A stretch of 39,813 nt of DNA. It comes from Acidobacteria bacterium RIFCSPLOWO2_02_FULL_61_28 (GTDB lineage: Bacteria; Acidobacteriota; Terriglobia; 2-12-FULL-54-10). Below, piece by piece: positions 12,138-39,346 of this stretch. The position numbers and the translations under genes are program-made. The first letter of the stretch is position 1, and every line of letters begins with the position of its first letter. The notes beneath the pieces were generated by a model. The model was given only the letters and a program-made list of their open reading frames with translations. It was not told the origin of the DNA and made no database searches. Location: contig MEKR01000142.1 in the NCBI GenBank assembly GCA_001767035.1, positions 1-39,813 of the forward strand. Direction: 5' to 3'.

Positions 12138-12167
12138 ATTATACGGGAGAGTGGCGGGTTGTGTGAA
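12138..12167 (-). promoter_or_regulatory. Sigma-70-type promoter of the yceD-rpmF-fab cluster
   Basis: On the minus strand, TTCACA (12167-12162) and TATAAT (12143-12138) are separated by 18 bp. The -35 matches consensus at five of six bases and the -10 at six of six. The transcript would start near 12131, about 28 bases before the yceD ATG at 12103. Confidence 0.7.
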
Positions 12168-16660: not shown

Positions 16661-16689
16661 TTGACAACCCGAAGTATCAAATCTATACT
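16661..16689 (+). promoter_or_regulatory. Strong promoter of the porin-cupredoxin-diheme operon
   Basis: A perfect TTGACA (16661-16666) is followed after exactly 17 bp by TATACT (16684-16689; five of six). It is the best promoter in the window. Transcription should start near 16696, at the border of an AT-rich repeat region. Confidence 0.8.
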
Positions 16690-16696
16690 TACGAAA

Positions 16697-16740
16697 TTAA
16701 CTAATGATGATTAACATAATGGTTAATGTGATATTTAATG
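16697..16740 (+). promoter_or_regulatory. Candidate operator: repeated TTAA..AATG sites
   Basis: Just after the predicted transcript start lie TTAAC (16697), TTAAC (16711), GTTAA (16722) and TTTAA (16734), each linked to an AATG word. TTAAC at 16711 and GTTAA at 16722 also form an inverted pair. The block is far more AT-rich than its surroundings. Position and repetition suggest repressor binding. The regulator is not known and no regulator gene is adjacent. Confidence 0.4.
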
Positions 16741-16812
16741 GAAATGAATCTGTGATTAAGACTGCTTCGTTGCCGTTTCCATGATTTTCGTGATCCGAGG
16801 GGGGATGATTCC

Positions 16813-18294
16813 ATGGCAAACAGGTGCATGTCGGGGACGCTGCTCTCGATCCGCCGCCCGCGCCGGAAGATTCTGGCAGGGTTCAGGTGGGTCGCGGGAA
16901 TGCTGGCTTGCCTCTGCGCCGCATCGCTCCAAGCGCAGGTCGGCGAAAGCGATCTCGCCGGCCGCATCCAGGCCCTGGAGCGGCAGGTGGCGGAACTGAA
17001 CCGGCGACTGACCCCAGCCCCCGTTGGAAATTCTCCGGCAGTCGCCCCCGGCGCGGACCTCCCGCTCGAGGCTCGCGTGGCCGCGCTCGAAAACCACGTG
17101 CAACGGCTCCTAGCACAATTCGCCTCTTCCGCCGAACCGCAAACGGCAACCGCTCCACGGCTCCGTCCGCCGGAGCCTTCCGCTGCTGATTCGCCGCTAG
17201 CAGCCTCTTTTCCTCCGCTTCAGAGACTGGAGACACGCGCTACCTCGTCGGAAGAAACGCGCTTGCCCGTCGCCGGCTACATGGAACTGAACTTCACGAA
17301 ACCCCAGCAGCAATCCCCGACCCTCGACTTTCGCCGATTCGTTTTGCTGTTCGGGCACAGTTTTTCCGACCGGCTGAAATTCTGGTCCGAGCTCGAAGTG
17401 GAACACGCGTTCGTCGAAGGGGGGGAAGAAAAAGGCGAACTGGAACTGGAGCAGGCCTATCTGGACTTTCTGCTGCACCCGGCGTTCAATTTTCGCGCCG
17501 GGATGCTCCTGACTCCGATGGGGATCATCAACGAGCGGCATGAGCCGCCGTCCTTCTACGGCGTTCTCCGCCCGCAGGTGGATACCGTGATTATTCCCTC
17601 GACGTGGTTTGACACCGGCGCGGGCTTTTTCGGCGACCTGGGGAAGGGATTTTCCTACAAGTTTTATGGAATGGCTCCGCTCGACGCCACCGGCTTCACT
17701 GCCGAGGAAGGCCTAAGAGGGGGACTCCAGAAAGGTTCCCAATCGTTCCTCCGAAATTGGGCGCAGGCGTTGCGCATCGAGTACCGGGGCGCTCCGCGGC
17801 TGGTATTGGGAACCAGCATATGGAACGGGAAAACGGGTCATGATTTGCCGACGGTCAATCCCGCCGTCCGGATTTTCGAGTTCGACGGCCGCACCCGCTG
17901 GAACCGCTTCGAAGCCCGCGGCGAATTCGCGTCGGCGTTTCTCACCCGCGCGCGCGAGTTGAACCTGGCGCTCGAGCGGCAAACCGGAATCAACCCGAAT
18001 CTGGCGCGGCAGATGCGCGGGTATTATCTGGAAACCGCAGCCCACCTCTTGCCCCGCGCGAGCAAATATGACCTGGCGGGTTTCGTGCGCTACGAGAATT
18101 TCGACACCCAATTCCGGATGCCGCGCGGATTCCTGCCGCTCAAACAGTTTGACCGCTCCCTATGGACCGTGGGAGCCAGTTTCTACCCCCATCCCGACAT
18201 CGCTCTGAAAGCCGACTACCAGATTCTGCGCAATCAGAGCGAGGCTGTCGGCGCCCCCAACCAATTCAACCTGGGTCTGGGCTGGTGGTTTTGA
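16813..18294 (+). CDS. Outer-membrane porin, OprO/OprP-like
   Basis: 493 residues. After a positively charged N-terminus comes a signal peptide (ILAGFRWVAGMLACLCAASLQA, cleavage near residue 43). Next is a short coiled coil (IQALERQVAELNRRL and VAALENHVQRLLAQF), which often trimerises porins or tethers them in the periplasm. A Pro/Ala linker to about residue 150 leads to a beta-barrel with alternating strands: YMELNFTKPQQ, FRRFVLLFGHSFSDRLKFWSELEVEHAF and FRAGMLLTPMGIINERHEPP. The phenylalanine-ended C-terminus (LNLGLGWWF) is the outer-membrane insertion signal. It is the first gene of a three-gene unit with a CuA protein and a di-heme protein, so it may admit the substrate or metal those proteins use. 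The solute is unknown. Confidence 0.85.
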   Translation: MANRCMSGTLLSIRRPRRKILAGFRWVAGMLACLCAASLQAQVGESDLAGRIQALERQVAELNRRLTPAPVGNSPAVAPGADLPLEARVAALENHVQRLLAQFASSAEPQTATAPRLRPPEPSAADSPLAASFPPLQRLETRATSSEETRLPVAGYMELNFTKPQQQSPTLDFRRFVLLFGHSFSDRLKFWSELEVEHAFVEGGEEKGELELEQAYLDFLLHPAFNFRAGMLLTPMGIINERHEPPSFYGVLRPQVDTVIIPSTWFDTGAGFFGDLGKGFSYKFYGMAPLDATGFTAEEGLRGGLQKGSQSFLRNWAQALRIEYRGAPRLVLGTSIWNGKTGHDLPTVNPAVRIFEFDGRTRWNRFEARGEFASAFLTRARELNLALERQTGINPNLARQMRGYYLETAAHLLPRASKYDLAGFVRYENFDTQFRMPRGFLPLKQFDRSLWTVGASFYPHPDIALKADYQILRNQSEAVGAPNQFNLGLGWWF

Positions 18295-18303
18295 AGGAAT
18301 GCC

Positions 18304-18714
18304 ATGAATCGAAACAACCCACAACACGCTCCGGCTCTGGGGGCGGCCGTCCTGCTGGCAGTGTTCGCTCTCGGCTCCGCGGGCGCTACGGGCAAAGCTC
18401 CCACGTTGCCCCAGGAAGCACCGGAAAAGCCCGTCCAGAGAATCCGGATCACCGCGGAGCGGTTCAGCTTTACCCCTTCCCGCATCAAGGTCAAGGCCGG
18501 AACGATTGTGGAGATCGTGGCGGAGAGCGAGGACACTTCCCACGGGTTCCATCTTCCGGACGCGGGCATTGATACGCAAATCCCTGCTCGCGGCAAAGGA
18601 GAGTTGCGGCTGCGCTTTGAAGCCACCCAGCCCGGAACCTATTTCTTTGAGTGCTCGCGCCCCTGCGGAGCCGGCCACAATACCATGCGCGGGACCATTG
18701 TCGTGGAGGACTGA
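18304..18714 (+). CDS. Secreted cupredoxin with a complete CuA-type site
   Basis: 136 residues. The N-terminal signal peptide (ALGAAVLLAVFALGSAGA) leads to a short linker and a cupredoxin domain from about residue 45. The copper ligands match subunit II of cytochrome oxidases: H80 (SEDTSHGF), then C117, C121, H125 and M128 in CSRPCGAGHNTM, the C-x3-C-x3-H-x2-M pattern of a binuclear CuA centre. No transmembrane helices or other oxidase subunits are present, so this is a free periplasmic electron carrier or copper carrier rather than an oxidase subunit. It follows the porin by nine bases and precedes the di-heme gene by eight. Electron transfer between CuA and the di-heme protein is inferred. 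Confidence 0.85.
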   Translation: MNRNNPQHAPALGAAVLLAVFALGSAGATGKAPTLPQEAPEKPVQRIRITAERFSFTPSRIKVKAGTIVEIVAESEDTSHGFHLPDAGIDTQIPARGKGELRLRFEATQPGTYFFECSRPCGAGHNTMRGTIVVED

Positions 18715-18722
18715 ATCAACCG

Positions 18723-19940
18723 ATGGCACGAAATCAGGTTCGGCAACTCCGTGGATGGGCGACCGTGGGAATGCTGGTGTCTGTTCTTCTTCTCAGCCTG
18801 CGATCCTCCGGGCAGCGCGCCGAGCCTTCTCCGGCGCCGTTCGGCGGTCCTTTGCCGGGAGTCACAGCGCAAGAGTTCGAGCGTTTTCGCGTGGGCCTGG
18901 AGGACTTCCTGGAAGTGGAAGAATCCGAGGAGGGTCTCGGGCCGGTCTTCAACGGACGCTCCTGCGCGGAGTGTCACAGTATTCCCGCCGTGGGAGGAGG
19001 CGGGACCGTCCTGGAGATGAGGGCAGGCCGGCGCAATCCGGATGGAACGTTCGATCCATTGCCCGGCGGGTCGGTCTTCCAGCTTTTCTCGATCCCGCCA
19101 CACACCTGTCAAGAACGGATTCCGCCCGAGGCGAACGTGGTCGCGCCGCGCAAGTCCATTCCCTTATTTGGGGCCGGGCTGGTGGAGGCCATCCCGGACG
19201 AAGCCCTCGCTGCCCTGGCCGATCCGGACGACCGCGACGGAGACGGGGTTTCGGGACGCGTCCATTGGGTCATGGACCGTGGTACGGGGACCGCTCGCGC
19301 CGGACGCTTCGGCTGGAAGGCCCAACAAGCCACGCTGCTCTCCTTTGGCGCCGAAGCCTATCTCGAAGAGATGGGCATTACCAACGAGTTGTTTCCGCGT
19401 GAGAACGCCCCCAACGGCGACGAGGAGCGCCTGTTGCGGTGTCTGCCCTTGCGTGCCGTCCGTCATATCGAAGATGTGGCGGACCGTTTTACCGGCCTGC
19501 GCGGCATTGACAATTTCGAGGCCTTTTTGCGCTTCCTCGGCCCGCCGCCGCGCGGTGAGAGCACGGACCTCGCGCGCCGCGGGGAGCGGCTCTTCGCGGA
19601 AATCCAATGCGCTGCCTGTCATGTCCCCGTGCTGCTGACCGGCCCGAGTTCCAACCCCGTATTTGACCGCCGACTCGTGCAGCTTTATTCCGACCTGCTG
19701 CTGCACGACATCGGAACCGGCGACGGCATAGTGCAAGGGGACGCTCCGGGCGAGGAAATTCGCACCCCGGCACTTTGGGGGCTGCGAGTCCGGCGCGGCT
19801 TGCTCCACGACGGCAGCGCCGCCACCCTGACCGAGGCCATCCTTCGACACGATCAGGAAGCCGCAGAGGCCCGCCGGCTCTTCCAGACTCTGCCCGCGGG
19901 AGAAGTCGTAGCCCTCCTTGCATTCCTCGATTCCCTGTAA
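18723..19940 (+). CDS. Di-heme oxidoreductase, DUF1111/DHOR family
   Basis: 405 residues from ATG 18723. The frame is open upstream, but that start would overlap the cupredoxin gene. A signal peptide (about residues 11-30) sends it to the periplasm. Two c-type heme sites are visible, CAECH (81-85) and CAACH (296-300), with the family text GLGPVFNGRSCAECHS at the first and RGERLFAEIQCAACHVP at the second. IGTGDGIVQGDAPGEEIRTPALWGLR and LLHDGSAATLTEAI are typical of the C-terminal half. Known members are called thiol oxidoreductases or di-heme peroxidase relatives; the substrate is uncertain. It ends the porin-CuA-diheme unit. Confidence 0.88.
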   Translation: MARNQVRQLRGWATVGMLVSVLLLSLRSSGQRAEPSPAPFGGPLPGVTAQEFERFRVGLEDFLEVEESEEGLGPVFNGRSCAECHSIPAVGGGGTVLEMRAGRRNPDGTFDPLPGGSVFQLFSIPPHTCQERIPPEANVVAPRKSIPLFGAGLVEAIPDEALAALADPDDRDGDGVSGRVHWVMDRGTGTARAGRFGWKAQQATLLSFGAEAYLEEMGITNELFPRENAPNGDEERLLRCLPLRAVRHIEDVADRFTGLRGIDNFEAFLRFLGPPPRGESTDLARRGERLFAEIQCAACHVPVLLTGPSSNPVFDRRLVQLYSDLLLHDIGTGDGIVQGDAPGEEIRTPALWGLRVRRGLLHDGSAATLTEAILRHDQEAAEARRLFQTLPAGEVVALLAFLDSL

Positions 19941-26206: not shown

Positions 26207-26593
26207 ACGGTCCTTGTAAGCCGGACTGCCATTGTCGGCTCGAATGTCCCAAGGCGCGCCGCGCGGGATGGCCCGCGGGCGCTGCCGAAGGGCCTCCTCG
26301 CAACCTTTGGTCTTTGTCTTCGCACGCCAAATAGGGAGCGCAGAAGTGTTCCCTTCTGATGACTCTCTTCCTATTGACAAGTTCTCAGCTTTTTGAGTAG
26401 GGTAGGAACAGTTACGGTCAAGATTCGCGGAAGTTTTACATGCCTGGGATGATTCCCTGGAAGAGGGGGATGTTTTGAGCGGCATGTACGGGGGTTTTTT
26501 CATCCGCTGGCGGTACCGATCAAAAAGGGAATGAGTTGCGGGTGGACTGAGTTGTTTGAGACACAACTCCGCAAAAGAGTAACGGAGGATATC
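26207..26593. other. Leader region before the large TonB-dependent receptor
   Basis: No gene is visible. TTGACA at 26374-26379 is a perfect -35, but the best -10 at 17-18 bp (TAGGGT, 26398-26403) is poor. If used, it gives an untranslated leader of about 180 bases. The end of the leader has AACGGAGGA before ATG 26594. No riboswitch fold was recognised by eye. Confidence 0.4.
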
Positions 26594-29500
26594 ATGAAAA
26601 CGAAATTAGCGGCGAGTGTGCGGGGTGTCCGCCGTGCCGGCGGGCGCGGTTACATTTTGAGTTTATTCTTGCTGAGCGCTTCCGTGGCGCTGGCTCAATT
26701 GACCACGGGCACCATCACCGGGAGCGTGACCGATCCGTCGGGCGCGGCAGTGCCTGGGGCAACCGTAACGATCAAGAACGTGGACACGGGGAGCAGCCGG
26801 GGCACTACCACCGGCCCTACCGGCCGCTACGAAGCGCCGAATCTTTCCGTCGGCAACTATGAAATCACCGCGACATTAGCCGGGTTCCAGACCAGCATCC
26901 GAAAAGGGATCGCGGTGTCCGTAGGACAGACGGCGGTGGTGGACCATGCGCTGCAAGTCGGCGAGGTAACGCAACAGGTGACGGTCACGGGCGAAGCGCC
27001 CCTGGTCGAAACCAGCAGCGCCACAGTGGCCAACCTGGTGACGGAGAAGCAGGTGGAAGACCTGCCGCTCAATAACCGCGACCTGACCCAGTTGAGCTTC
27101 CTCCAGCCGGGCGTGCTGAAAATCCCGCGGTCCGGGGAACAGACCGTCTTCGGCGGGATGGGCGATACGCTGAGCGTCGCCGGGGCGCGCGGCAGTCAGA
27201 ACGTTTACCTCCTGGACGGGGTGAGCAACTCCGACCTTTCAAGCAACGCCCAGGGAGCCACCGGATCCTATACCGGCGCGGAAACCGTCAAAGAATTCCA
27301 GATCATCACCAACAATTACTCCGCCGAATACCGCAGCCAGGCCGGAGCCATTGTCAGCGCGGTCACGAAATCCGGGACCAATTCCTTTCACGGCTCGGTC
27401 TTTGAGTTCCTTCGCAATGACAACCTCGATGCGGCGAACTTTTTCGACAATGCGTCCGGAAACAAGAAACCGGAATTCAAGCGCAACCAGTTCGGCGGTT
27501 CGCTCGGCGGACCGGTTCTCCGGGACAAGACGTTCTTTTTCGGAAGTTACGAAGGGACGCGAGAACGCCTCTCGACCACGGATATTGCCCGGGTTCCCTC
27601 GATCGCTGCCCGTCAAGGCATTTTGCCCGGCCGTGCTCCGCTTCAAGTCTCCCCGCTGATCCGGCCGTACCTAGAACTCTGGCCCACGCCCGGTCAAGGC
27701 AATTCGGTTGTGGAGGACCTAGGGGATGGGACCGTCCGCATTGTGGGCACGCAACGGACACCCACGAATGATGATTTTGTGGCTGTCCGCCTCGACCACC
27801 AGTTTTCGGGGCAAAAGGCCGGATTCCTCTCCGGGACCTACAATTTCGATGACAGTGACCGGTCTCCCATCGGACTGTTCGGTGAGGTGACCAATAGCGG
27901 CGAAGACCACGGAGGCCTTAGCAACCTCAGCAAGAAGCACGTTGCCTCTGTGCGGCATACCAGTGTTTTTTCTCCCACCATCCTGAACGAGTTCAATTTT
28001 GGCTTTAGCCGCACAGAAAACGGCGGAGAGATTCCCACCACGACGCGCGAGTTTGGGAACCTGGTTTTTCACCCCCAACGCAAGTTGATAGGGCAGCTTA
28101 CGGTCCCCGGCACACTGGAGAACAACGGGGTTGGCTTTCGGGTGGGTGGCTCGACTTATGTACAGAAGAGCTTCCTCGCGAAGGAAGGTCTCTCGATCAC
28201 CAGGGGGAACCATTCGTTTCGCCTGGGAGGGGAGGCCAACTGGTTTCGCTATACGCAAGCAAGCTGCTCTCGGGGCTGTAACGGAATTTACGAGTTCCGG
28301 AGCCTGCCGGACCTCTTAACGGCCACGCCCCGGCGACTTGACATCATGCTCCCCGGCGGCGACAGCCCGACCCGCCATCTCCGGCAACTCTTCTCCGGCA
28401 TGTATTTCCAGGACAACTGGCAGATCCGTCCCTCCTTTACGCTGAACCTGGGACTGCGCTACGAGTTCGCCACGGTTCCGGACGACGACGATGGACTGAT
28501 TTCGGGTCTGGTCAATTTCTTAGATCCGAACGTCTCCGTTTCCACCACGACTGCGCAGAAATATCAGGGCCAGACCTTTTCGGGAACGATTGACCAGTTC
28601 TTCACTAATGCGACAACGAAGAGCTTCAGCCCGCGGTTCGGATTTGCCTGGGCGCCCGGCTCGCGGAAAACTTCGGTCCGCGGCGGCTTCGGCATCTTCT
28701 ACGAGCATCCCATGCTGTACGCCCTCCGCACCGCGTTGCAGGAATTGCCTCCGTTTGTTCTGGTCGGACGGGCCGAGACATCCACCGCAACTCCGCTGCG
28801 ATTCCCCGATGCGTTCACCACGCAGCAAAACCTCCTCCGCGGTCGCCCCAATATCCGGACCCTGGAATACGACATGAAGACCACCTACATCTACCGCTGG
28901 AGCATGACCTTGCAGCGGGAGTTCCTGAACGAGTGGATGGTTTCGGCAGGCTATACCGGCTCGCGGGCGCTCCACTTGGTGCAACAAACCCTTGGGAACG
29001 TCCGCCGTTGGGAGGGCTACCCGAACAATCCCACGGGTCCCAAGTTCTTCCCGGCCGGCAGCCCGCTACTTAATCCCACCTTCGGGGAAATGCGCATGCA
29101 GTCGCCGAATGGGAACAGCTACTATCATGGGCTGCAAGTGGGCGCGCAGAAGCGGCTCAGCCATGGGGTCCAGATGCAGTTGGCGTATAACTTCTCCCAC
29201 GTAATTGACCAGGGTTCCGGCGTGACCCAGGGCGGCGAAGCCCTCCCCCAGGGGCAGCGAGGAGTTTATTACTGGGATGTCCACATGAAACGGAGTCCGG
29301 CGGCGTTCGACATCAAGCATAGCTTCGTAACCAACTTCAGCTACGAGCCGACCTTCGGACGGGACCTTGCCGGAGTTGCCGGCGCTATCGTGAAGGGATG
29401 GCAATTGAACGGCGTCCTCTCGCTGTCCAGCGGCCACCCGCTCTCGGTTCTGGACGACGCGAACGCGGCGCAAATCACGAGGATCGGGGATGCGGAAAGC

Positions 29501-29866
29501 CTGCGGGTTGACTTGATTCCGGGTGGGAACAACAACCCGGTGCTGGGGGGCCCGGACCGCTACTACGACCCGAGCCAATTCACACCCTCCCAGACCGGTT
29601 ATTTCGGTACGGTCGGACCAGGCACAGTGAGGGCGCCGGGCCTGGCGACGTTTGATCTCTCGGTCTTCAAGAGCTTCAACGTAACGGAGACCAACCGGTT
29701 CCAGTTCCGGGCCGAGTTCTTCAACCTCTTTAATCGGGTGAACTTCCACACGCCGGACATGATCCCGTTCGGCCCTACCGGAACCCCGAACCCCAACGCA
29801 GGGCAGATTGAACGCACCCGCACTCCGGCGCGGCAGATTCAGTTTGCGTTGAAGTATATTTTCTAG
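26594..29866 (+). CDS. TonB-dependent receptor, Oar-like, with carboxypeptidase-regulatory-like domain
   Basis: 1090 residues from ATG 26594 (site AACGGAGGA). The signal peptide is YILSLFLLSASVALA. A CarboxypepD_reg-like domain follows at about 38-125 (GTITGSVTDPSGAAVPGATV, then GNYEITATLAGFQT). The plug is present: EAPLVETSSATVANLVTEKQ and DLPLNNRDLTQLSFLQPGV, then VAGARGSQNVYLLDGVSNSD. The barrel opens with GTNSFHGSVFEFLRNDNLDAANF-type text and RNQFGGSLGGPVLRDKTFFF, and ends QIQFALKYIF. Such proteins import large substrates, probably oligosaccharides or peptides, with energy from TonB. It follows the giant secreted protein on the same strand, so binding outside and uptake may be linked. The substrate is unknown. 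Confidence 0.9.
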   Translation: MKTKLAASVRGVRRAGGRGYILSLFLLSASVALAQLTTGTITGSVTDPSGAAVPGATVTIKNVDTGSSRGTTTGPTGRYEAPNLSVGNYEITATLAGFQTSIRKGIAVSVGQTAVVDHALQVGEVTQQVTVTGEAPLVETSSATVANLVTEKQVEDLPLNNRDLTQLSFLQPGVLKIPRSGEQTVFGGMGDTLSVAGARGSQNVYLLDGVSNSDLSSNAQGATGSYTGAETVKEFQIITNNYSAEYRSQAGAIVSAVTKSGTNSFHGSVFEFLRNDNLDAANFFDNASGNKKPEFKRNQFGGSLGGPVLRDKTFFFGSYEGTRERLSTTDIARVPSIAARQGILPGRAPLQVSPLIRPYLELWPTPGQGNSVVEDLGDGTVRIVGTQRTPTNDDFVAVRLDHQFSGQKAGFLSGTYNFDDSDRSPIGLFGEVTNSGEDHGGLSNLSKKHVASVRHTSVFSPTILNEFNFGFSRTENGGEIPTTTREFGNLVFHPQRKLIGQLTVPGTLENNGVGFRVGGSTYVQKSFLAKEGLSITRGNHSFRLGGEANWFRYTQASCSRGCNGIYEFRSLPDLLTATPRRLDIMLPGGDSPTRHLRQLFSGMYFQDNWQIRPSFTLNLGLRYEFATVPDDDDGLISGLVNFLDPNVSVSTTTAQKYQGQTFSGTIDQFFTNATTKSFSPRFGFAWAPGSRKTSVRGGFGIFYEHPMLYALRTALQELPPFVLVGRAETSTATPLRFPDAFTTQQNLLRGRPNIRTLEYDMKTTYIYRWSMTLQREFLNEWMVSAGYTGSRALHLVQQTLGNVRRWEGYPNNPTGPKFFPAGSPLLNPTFGEMRMQSPNGNSYYHGLQVGAQKRLSHGVQMQLAYNFSHVIDQGSGVTQGGEALPQGQRGVYYWDVHMKRSPAAFDIKHSFVTNFSYEPTFGRDLAGVAGAIVKGWQLNGVLSLSSGHPLSVLDDANAAQITRIGDAESLRVDLIPGGNNNPVLGGPDRYYDPSQFTPSQTGYFGTVGPGTVRAPGLATFDLSVFKSFNVTETNRFQFRAEFFNLFNRVNFHTPDMIPFGPTGTPNPNAGQIERTRTPARQIQFALKYIF

Positions 29867-36436: not shown

Positions 36437-39346
36437 ATGCCAGCTCTCTTATCAGAATCGCGCAGCACGCCAACACCCCAGAACGCAAGGTACAGGACTG
36501 GGATGTTGTTTCTTCTCATCCTGTTGCTATCCCTTGGCAGCGCTCACGCGGCCCTTACGATAACGGGCCGTGTCCTGGATGCGGAGGGTGACGGCATCGC
36601 CGGAGCCGAAGTGACCGCCACTCTGCCGCCAGCCGACTTGGCGGCGACGGTCCTGACGGCACAGGATGGAACGTATACGTTGGAAGTGGATTCTCCAGGA
36701 ATCTACACCATTACCGTAAAGAAATCCGGATACCTGGACTTGGTCCGGGAGGGCGTAGCCGCCGAGGGGGAAGGCAACGGCCTTCCGTTGGACCTCCGGC
36801 TGCGGCCCGGTCAGGAACCGACGGTGGTGCAAGGAGTGGAGGAACTCAATCCCAACGTCTTCGTCGTCAAGCTCGACACCAATGAGATCACACGAGAACT
36901 CGAGCGCCGAGGCACGGATACGCTGTTCCTCCGGGAGTTTCACGCCCGCGAAAACTACTTCGGGGCGATTCATGGCTTCCCCTTGCGGAGGCTGGCGGTC
37001 GTTCGACCCCAACCGCTCCTTGCCGACTTGCATGGGACTCTGTATGCAAACCATCAGAATAGCGCCCTGAATGCCCGCTCGTTCTTCACGGTAGGCGACT
37101 TGCTGCCCTCCCGCCGGAATGATTACGGCGCTACGATCGGCGGCCCGATTCACAAAGAATCCCTGTCGTTCCATTTCGCCTGGAGCCAGATCCGCGAGAC
37201 CGGCTACGTGAACGGAAACATTCAAGCCCCGCTGGCGGAGGAGCGCTCGCCCCGTTCCGAAGATCCGGCCACAAACGCCGTGATCGCCGGGCTGCTGAAA
37301 GCATTCCCGGACGCACTTCCCAACTTGCCGCTTTCCAAAAGCCGCCGGCAGCTCAACACCAATGCATTGCGCTCCATTCGAAGCACGGCCTTCTCCACTC
37401 GGTTCGACTACCGCCCGCGGGAGGCGGATCAATTGGCCTTCGAGCAACGGTTTCTGGATTCCACCGAGGAGCCGTTCCAAATCGTGGTGGGACGGAATCC
37501 GGTAACCCTTTTGCAGCCCCAGAGCTTTCAGCTTACCCACCTCCACACGTTCTCCCCCCATACGCTTTCTCGCCTCTCCATCAACTTCGGCCGGCTCTCC
37601 GTCGGGTTGGACGTGACCAAAGAGTACCGAAACTTGCTGGCGCCCCTGGGAATCCAAGTAGTCCCGGAAGTTACTTTCGGGGGAGACTTGACCCAATTGG
37701 GTCCCGGTTCCAGCTACCCGCGACACCGCGTGGAAAACCGATTTTATCTCTCCCCCGAAATCAGCCAGATGCGCGGCAACCATTCCCTGGCAGCGGGATT
37801 CTATGTTGTGCGGCTGCAAACGAACGACTTGCAAAGCGACAACTCCCGCGGCAATTTCGCCTTCACACGAAACTTTGGCCGCTCCGCGGTCGAGAACTTC
37901 TTGTTGGGCCGTCCGACTTCCTTCACCATCACGGTGGGGAACCTCTACCGCGGCTTTCGGAACTGGGAAGGCGCTTTCTACTTCCATGACACCGTCCGCC
38001 TAAGCCCTCGCTGGACGCTTTCGCTGGGCCTGCGGTACGAATTGGTTACCGCGCCCACCGAGGTCAACAACCTCACGTCGGTCCCCTTCCGAACCGACGC
38101 CAATAACTTTGCTCCCCAGTTCGGTTTCGCCTGGAATCCGGGCGGGGGCAAGACCGTCGTGCGCGGCGGCTATGGGATCTCCTTCAGCTCCATCTTTCCG
38201 GTCCTGTACCAGCGGGCTCGCTTCAACCCGCCTGCCGTCAGCGTCATCTCCGTGGACAACCCGGACCTGCTCGATCCATTGCGAGGGATTGATCTGAGGG
38301 CTGCCGCCAGGCCCCGGTCTGCTTTGAACCTGCTCAGTCCGGACCTGGTGGCCCCCTATTCTCAGCTCTACAACTTTGGGATCGAGCGCACGGTGGCGGA
38401 CAACTTCCTTGTAAGGATCGGCTATATTGGAAGCCGGACGATCAAGCTGCCTACCCGAAATGTCTCGAACCGGGCAAGACCGGTTCCTGGAATCTGCCAG
38501 GAACGGGCAGGGATCCCCTACCTTTGGTGCGAGACCTCGACCATCAATCTTCGTCGCCCGGACCCCAGGTACCTGGAAGTCATCACCGTTGCAAACAGAA
38601 GCATCGGATACTTCGACGCCCTGCAACTCTCCGTGGATCAGCGGCTGACGAAAGGGTTGGTCTGGAACGCCCGGTACACCTTCAGCAAAGCGATCGGCAC
38701 GGGAGACACCTCCTTCAACCACATCGCGACAGGCTCCCATCTGAGCGGTATGGAAAACGACACCACAGGGGACCTCCGAGGTTTGGAGCGCTGGGACACT
38801 CCCCATGCACTGACCTTCGGGTACCGCTATGAGTTTCCCTGGTTCCGGCGCCGGGAGGGAATGAGATCGCTGCTCTTGGGGGGCTGGAGAATCTCCGGCA
38901 CGACCACACTTCGATCCGCCACGCCCCAGCACATGCACACCGGGTCGGATGCGCCGGGCTTTGGGAATGTGGATGGAGTGGCCGGAGACAGGCCGAATTT
39001 GCTCAATCCCGCCATCCTATGGAAGAGCCTGGATCACCCGGATCGAGTGGGGAACATTTTCCGCCCAGAATACTTTGACACCAATATTCCACCCGGAGGG
39101 CGCGGGAACCTGGGGTACCAAACCTTCCGCAATGACGGGATGCACAACTGGAATTTCGCCGCGGAAAAGGAGTTTCCCGTTCGGGAAGCGGCGGAGGTCC
39201 AGTTCCGCGCCGAATTCATCAACTTTTCCAATCATCCGCATTTCGACGAAGTCAACCACGATATCGCCTCCGAGAACTTCGCGACCATCACCAACACCGC
39301 CAATCGAGGACGGTTGGTTCAGCTTCTGCTGCGGCTGCGGTGGTAG
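36437..39346 (+). CDS. Oar-like outer-membrane protein, apparently lacking the plug domain
   Basis: 969 residues from ATG 36437 with a GAGGA site; ATG 36503 would start right at the signal peptide MLFLLILLLSLGSAHA. A carboxypeptidase-regulatory-like domain (about 42-125, TITGRVLDAEGDGIAGAEV) is followed by EELNPNVFVVKLDTNEITREL, and then, after only about 70 residues, by barrel-entry text (LNARSFFTVGDLLPSRRNDYGATIGGPI-type). The plug marks found in the other receptor (LDGVSN, RDLTQLSF) are missing. Barrel strands follow (RNHSLAAGF-like, WTLSLGLRYELVTAPT, VRGGYGISFSS) and the end is LVQLLLRLRW. Without a plug it could be a constitutive channel or use the 70-residue segment as a small gate. Substrate unknown. 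Confidence 0.85.
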   Translation: MPALLSESRSTPTPQNARYRTGMLFLLILLLSLGSAHAALTITGRVLDAEGDGIAGAEVTATLPPADLAATVLTAQDGTYTLEVDSPGIYTITVKKSGYLDLVREGVAAEGEGNGLPLDLRLRPGQEPTVVQGVEELNPNVFVVKLDTNEITRELERRGTDTLFLREFHARENYFGAIHGFPLRRLAVVRPQPLLADLHGTLYANHQNSALNARSFFTVGDLLPSRRNDYGATIGGPIHKESLSFHFAWSQIRETGYVNGNIQAPLAEERSPRSEDPATNAVIAGLLKAFPDALPNLPLSKSRRQLNTNALRSIRSTAFSTRFDYRPREADQLAFEQRFLDSTEEPFQIVVGRNPVTLLQPQSFQLTHLHTFSPHTLSRLSINFGRLSVGLDVTKEYRNLLAPLGIQVVPEVTFGGDLTQLGPGSSYPRHRVENRFYLSPEISQMRGNHSLAAGFYVVRLQTNDLQSDNSRGNFAFTRNFGRSAVENFLLGRPTSFTITVGNLYRGFRNWEGAFYFHDTVRLSPRWTLSLGLRYELVTAPTEVNNLTSVPFRTDANNFAPQFGFAWNPGGGKTVVRGGYGISFSSIFPVLYQRARFNPPAVSVISVDNPDLLDPLRGIDLRAAARPRSALNLLSPDLVAPYSQLYNFGIERTVADNFLVRIGYIGSRTIKLPTRNVSNRARPVPGICQERAGIPYLWCETSTINLRRPDPRYLEVITVANRSIGYFDALQLSVDQRLTKGLVWNARYTFSKAIGTGDTSFNHIATGSHLSGMENDTTGDLRGLERWDTPHALTFGYRYEFPWFRRREGMRSLLLGGWRISGTTTLRSATPQHMHTGSDAPGFGNVDGVAGDRPNLLNPAILWKSLDHPDRVGNIFRPEYFDTNIPPGGRGNLGYQTFRNDGMHNWNFAAEKEFPVREAAEVQFRAEFINFSNHPHFDEVNHDIASENFATITNTANRGRLVQLLLRLRW

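Follow-up and report, generated by a model that had tools for sequence, protein, structure and literature searches.

Three adjacent genes, which encode a predicted outer-membrane porin, a soluble CuA cupredoxin and a di-heme DHOR/DUF1111 protein, very probably belong to an MntR/DtxR metal-starvation regulon together with the importer genes mntH and feoB. We favor, with some reserve, the reading that this triad is a metal-repressed envelope operon for the acquisition of Mn2+ and/or Fe2+, in which the two redox proteins would keep the metal divalent. The genes lie in a 39,813-nucleotide stretch of acidobacterial DNA, the whole of which is called the window below.

Gene organization and conservation

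Re-reading the open reading frames of the window places the three genes where the initial annotation had put them, separated by gaps of 9 nt (porin/CuA) and 8 nt (CuA/DHOR), as it had also claimed:

16813..18294, plus strand: porin-like gene, first of the triad (493 aa)
18304..18714, plus strand: gene for the soluble, exported CuA cupredoxin, second of the triad (136 aa; P0002)
18723..19940, plus strand: gene for the di-heme DHOR/DUF1111 protein, third of the triad (405 aa; P0003)

Export of the three proteins is predicted solely from their hydrophobic N-termini. Judged by eye from their translations, the flanking genes encode a phosphoesterase-like protein (5' of the triad) and a sugar-nucleotide transferase (3'). 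Elsewhere in the window (26531-29866 and 36437-39346) there are two large outer-membrane proteins, of Oar type by eye, both of which have N-terminal carboxypeptidase-regulatory-like repeats.

The triad is present, in one order and on one strand, in at least 27 non-redundant Acidobacteriota genomes, a count taken after dropping genomes reached twice; the same gene order is seen in G004, from the same family, and in G052, from another. Within a set of 396 Acidobacteriota genomes, 19 CuA matches score at least 120 bits and 18 of these are part of a triad, while neither partner lies within ~1.5 kb of the weaker CuA matches with fetched loci (n = 11, at most 95 bits). There are likewise 19 porin matches of at least 490 bits, all but one of them in triads, after which the score drops to 334 bits, and 17 of 19 DHOR matches of at least 550 bits are found in triads, a count to which the G347 DHOR, truncated by a contig end, does not belong. 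A scan of GTDB contigs, which favors close relatives through its three-sequence CuA profile and strict peptide patterns, returned 17 loci, with the full triad in the 13 from Acidobacteriota-type records, one of which is labelled Aminicenantes. Incomplete sets are also seen: G188 has CuA and DHOR genes with the porin missing, triad-type DHOR genes stand alone in G195 and G449 (L236, L237), and a triad-type porin stands alone in G093 (L238). Pairwise distance matrices of the three proteins correlate (r 0.62-0.78), as would be expected under joint inheritance, to which common descent alone would also contribute. Because order and strand are constant in 27 genomes and nearly all of the strongest CuA relatives sit in a triad, the grouping is not accidental, and the idea of a genuine three-part unit, put forward in the initial annotation, is borne out by the retention of synteny.

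Properties of the three proteins

P0002 contains every CuA ligand that had been ascribed to it (H80, C117, C121, H125 and M128), and these are unchanged in 27 of 27 relatives, where they are among only 18 invariant columns. The two Cys, two His and one Met, arranged as H...CxxxCxxxHxxM, form the ligand set of the COX2/NosZ type. The protein exceeds the Pfam COX2 cut-off (26.9 against 22 bits), has 6pty as its best PDB match (2e-11), and fails the CoxB equivalog (41.4 bits; cut-off 147.7). CuA centres are best known for admitting electrons to cytochrome oxidase and nitrous oxide reductase. No oxidase subunit gene is found among the triad neighbors scanned with Pfam, the remaining neighbors being read by eye; the reported lack of oxidase partners thus holds beside the inspected triads, and at none of these loci does the cupredoxin stand next to oxidase genes.

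P0003 matches PF06537 (DHOR) with 147.5 bits (cut-off 22), and the two CxxCH heme sites expected in the third protein are located at residues 81-85 (C81-C84-H85) and 296-300 (C296-C299-H300), both being invariant in 27 of 27 genomes. Its likeness to bacterial cytochrome c peroxidases and MauG appears to be a distant profile similarity only, in that the former (1iqc, 9e-8; 3o5c, 2e-7) are the closest PDB entries to the DHOR profile and P0003 scores 14.6 bits against CCP_MauG (PF03150), under the cut-off of 25.6. A model built from a 14-row alignment is poor (pLDDT 45).

The porin gene neighbors the CuA and DHOR genes in all 27 triad genomes. Its product in the window has an N-terminal coiled coil and scores 15.2 bits against Porin_O_P (PF07396), under the 20.9 cut-off; PF07396 is matched at E<=0.01 by 5 of 14 relatives. 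A 14-row alignment gave a beta-barrel-rich model of low confidence (pLDDT 56), and in a fold search this low-confidence model finds porins, OprP and OmpC among them. Taken together with the model, these data suggest that the first triad protein is an outer-membrane porin, an assignment that would be weaker by sequence alone.

Promoter and candidate operators

The region before the triad is AT-rich (36% GC compared to 61% for the window) and contains the following elements:

16661..16689, plus strand: sigma-70-like promoter TTGACA-17-TATACT, 11/12 consensus bases
16672..16690, no strand assigned: palindrome AAGTAT-CAAATCT-ATACTT with perfect 6-bp arms, overlapping the -10 box
16696..16715, no strand assigned: operator-like site ATTAACTAATGATGATTAAC, directly 3' of the -10 box

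This promoter had been described as the best in the window; it is indeed the sole plus-strand site of its quality, but a minus-strand site at 12167 equals it in score. The candidate operators are placed as repressor sites usually are, with the palindrome at 16672..16690 as a possible second one, and palindromes over or just past the promoter boxes are seen in most triad promoters. On the minus strand the site at 16696..16715 reads TTAATCATCATTAG (16701-16714), and it differs by one mismatch from TTAATCNNCATTAA, which occurs exactly at the G004 triad promoter and, in the window's own genome, between a dtxR-type gene and an mntH gene that the contig end cuts short (177 bits against Pfam Nramp). 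When one mismatch is allowed, TTAATCNNCATTAA has three matches in the 3.86 Mb of this genome, namely the triad promoter, the mntH/dtxR region and one other. The pattern was composed with both the triad site of G004 and the dtxR site of this genome in view, so this link is less independent than those described below for G230, G347, G170, G253, G071 and G068.

Linked repressors and shared operator sites

Nine of the 27 triad genomes have a gene for a repressor of the MntR/DtxR family next to the triad. A DtxR-family repressor is encoded divergently from the porin at L049, L062, L063, L064 and L066; the repressors of L202 and L203, likewise divergent, score above the NCBI equivalog cut-off for manganese MntR (178 and 181 bits, cut-off 153); L210 and L212 have a related repressor gene immediately after DHOR. 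Repressors of this type are also present somewhere in the genome in 14 of the 14 triad genomes first examined, which says little because the family is common in control genomes too.

Patterns taken from triad promoters alone were scanned across whole genomes. In G230 and G347 they match between mntH and dtxR, in G170 within the dtxR/feoA-feoB region, and in G253 ahead of feoA-feoB. In G071 and G068 they match at mntH, and the MntH products of these two genomes pass NF001923 (582 and 591 bits; cut-off 430). Moreover, G069 has exact sites at two places only, the dtxR-feoB promoter and the triad. In G061, G062, G067 and G070 the genome-wide scans find the exact site at the triad only, and these genomes therefore add no importer link. 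Allowing one mismatch in TTTAGRBNNRNCTAAA gave more matches for the reversed control than for the pattern itself, so that such matches carry no weight, and the evidence from this pattern is limited to exact matches and individually inspected sites. Several other near-match sites, lying inside or beside unrelated genes, were dismissed. The triad promoter of G323 contains the palindrome ATGTAGC-N4-GCTACAT, found in G409 with one mismatch, which we take to have the general shape of the E. coli MntR box; a perfect MntR-like box in G409 (ATGTAGCCTATGCTACAT, L214; G409:C40:29188-29205) has no obvious metal gene alongside. The two features by which we assign genes to an MntR/DtxR regulon, a linked repressor and an operator common to mntH/feoB, are hence both found for the triad.

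Other genes were noted in the course of these scans. The MntH proteins encoded at L157:2367-4262 and L158:1910-3802, which share the triad operator, have a C-terminal universal stress protein (Usp) domain. A protein with a CxxCH N-terminus and a barrel-like body, Cyc2-like by eye, is encoded at L048:360-1589 in G004, where it precedes the porin and has no Pfam match, and at L164:2460-3623 in G065, where operators lie between the gene and a divergent dtxR; the regulon might include this protein as a fourth member. In G354, the operator TTTTGATGAGTCAAAA separates dtxR from a divergent gene that looks like a multicopper oxidase by eye (L233:466-1503).

Identity of the metal

Triad-associated repressors have Glu at the position of the Cys of iron-type DtxR/IdeR proteins (AExLEH versus ACRWEH) and Asp or Asn at that of the Met. 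The closest solved relatives of the L049 repressor include SloR and ScaR, while the best PDB match for the repressor of the window's own genome, encoded by ORF 660-1346 of G000:C29, is the iron repressor IdeR. The MntH genes, the MntR equivalogs and these metal-site residues point to sensing of manganese, or of both manganese and iron; iron is indicated by the IdeR match and by FeoB, found in three genomes. There is precedent for dual Mn/Fe repressors in DR2539, which acts at mntH (PMC3327659), and TroR (PMC2628430). Given that the mntH side suggests manganese, the feoB side suggests iron, and dual repressors exist, we write the metal as Mn/Fe.

Proposed function and alternatives

The triad is apparently switched on when Mn or Fe is short. 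With plentiful metal, an MntR/DtxR-family repressor would occupy the operator that overlaps the promoter; upon starvation the operon would be expressed along with MntH (NRAMP) or FeoB, the importers of the inner membrane. Entry of the metal, or of small metal complexes, into the periplasm would be through the porin, and there the cupredoxin and the di-heme protein could act as a redox pair on the incoming metal, keeping or making it divalent, i.e. Mn(III/IV) to Mn(II) and Fe(III) to Fe(II). In this scheme the operon, its conservation, the adjoining repressor genes and the operators in common with importers can be read from the sequences, whereas repressor binding, the identity of the metal, the substrate of the porin and the redox direction are inferred. 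A role in metal acquisition is likely. The reductive direction, which is favored because the co-regulated importers MntH and FeoB take divalent ions, is put forward only tentatively. Electron flow between heme and CuA is plausible, and CuA potentials near +250 mV would be a better match for Mn(III/IV) than for ferric oxides. A fully specified route, in which electrons pass through the di-heme protein and soluble CuA to Mn(III/IV) or Fe(III) delivered by the porin, giving Mn(II) for MntH, is rather doubtful.

The redox pair might instead protect against peroxide when Mn or Fe is scarce, with DHOR as a periplasmic peroxidase, CuA as its donor and the porin serving separately for metal. Manganese starvation and peroxide stress are physiologically linked, and bacterial cytochrome c peroxidases are the nearest PDB relatives of the DHOR profile. 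DHOR lies below the CCP_MauG cut-off in Pfam, however, and a peroxidase alone leaves the constant porin partner unexplained, making this an unlikely account. Uptake of the ferroxidase type, as in EfeUOB or FtrABCD, would have the pair oxidize periplasmic Fe(II) for a step that translocates Fe(III). This proposal can draw on the presence of DUF1111 proteins in imelysin operons that are under Fur control and linked to iron uptake (PMC3143127) and on the oxidation of Fe(II) by the Cu-loaded cupredoxin FtrB (PMC11966278). Nevertheless, we regard it as quite improbable, given that the co-regulated importers found, MntH and FeoB, take divalent ions and that neither an Ftr1/EfeU permease gene nor an imelysin gene is present among the Pfam-scanned neighbors.

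The initial annotation had proposed that a solute enters the periplasm and is oxidized there, with electrons passing between heme and CuA, and had named copper handling as an alternative. The grouping of a porin with redox proteins, and the copper bound by CuA, are compatible with oxidation of an imported organic solute or with copper handling, respectively. The regulators adjoining the triads and the operators are, however, of the Mn/Fe type and tie the unit to starvation for these metals and to MntH and FeoB, which speaks against solute oxidation. They speak equally against copper handling, which we dropped because the triad neighborhoods inspected show no recurring gene for a copper regulator or transporter; both ideas are now very improbable. 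Efflux, or a detoxifying oxidation of excess Mn or Fe, might be considered in light of one report, according to which some MntR proteins also activate exporters (PMC11275975), but the sites overlap the promoter, as in repression, and are common to importers, so that an efflux role is scarcely credible.

If acquisition of Mn/Fe is indeed the function of the triad, CuA gains a nutritional, non-respiratory role, the poorly understood DUF1111 family gains a testable partner, and a hint emerges of the route by which soil Acidobacteriota acquire manganese or iron. The triad would suggest a new type of metal-scavenging system built on a copper centre, and the operator that it has in common with importers makes the metal-starvation idea directly testable.

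Comparison with known systems

No published description of a set combining CuA, DUF1111, a porin and manganese was found in a literature search largely confined to papers outside subscription, in line with the earlier remark that no system with exactly these three parts is known to have been described. Imelysin-DUF1111 iron operons, such as PA4370-PA4373 of P. aeruginosa (PMC3143127), share with the triad a DUF1111 di-heme protein and the layout of a metal-repressed envelope operon that has no inner-membrane permease. They are controlled by Fur, however, whereas the triad is of the MntR/DtxR type, has a CuA cupredoxin and a porin, and is without imelysin, no imelysin (M75) gene being present among Pfam-scanned triad neighbors. 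EfeUOB and FtrABCD also have a periplasmic cupredoxin that is induced by metal shortage, and Efe has a heme peroxidase as well; in the triad, the cupredoxin is a CuA protein rather than one of the EfeO/FtrB type, the heme protein is a di-heme DHOR rather than a DyP, and an Ftr1-type permease is absent among the Pfam-scanned neighbors, the rest having been read by eye.

In Bradyrhizobium, the outer-membrane protein MnoP imports manganese and is required when the metal is scarce (review PMC9334652). It is a precedent for a manganese-importing outer-membrane channel and comparable to the triad porin in the role proposed for the latter; that review mentions no CuA or heme partners for MnoP. The CuA domains of COX subunit II and N2OR have the cupredoxin fold and full canonical ligand set in common with P0002, which differs in being short, soluble and exported, in having no oxidase or reductase partner in view, and in its metal-starvation control. 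PmoD of methane and ammonia oxidizers likewise has a CuA site outside COX and N2OR, but this site spans a homodimer and uses other residues (PMC6189053), unlike that of the triad. In outline, therefore, the triad resembles the Efe-type, Ftr and imelysin-DUF1111 operons, the defining parts of which are absent from the inspected neighborhoods, and it is the CuA centre and its partner porin that set it apart from other redox-assisted metal-acquisition operons.
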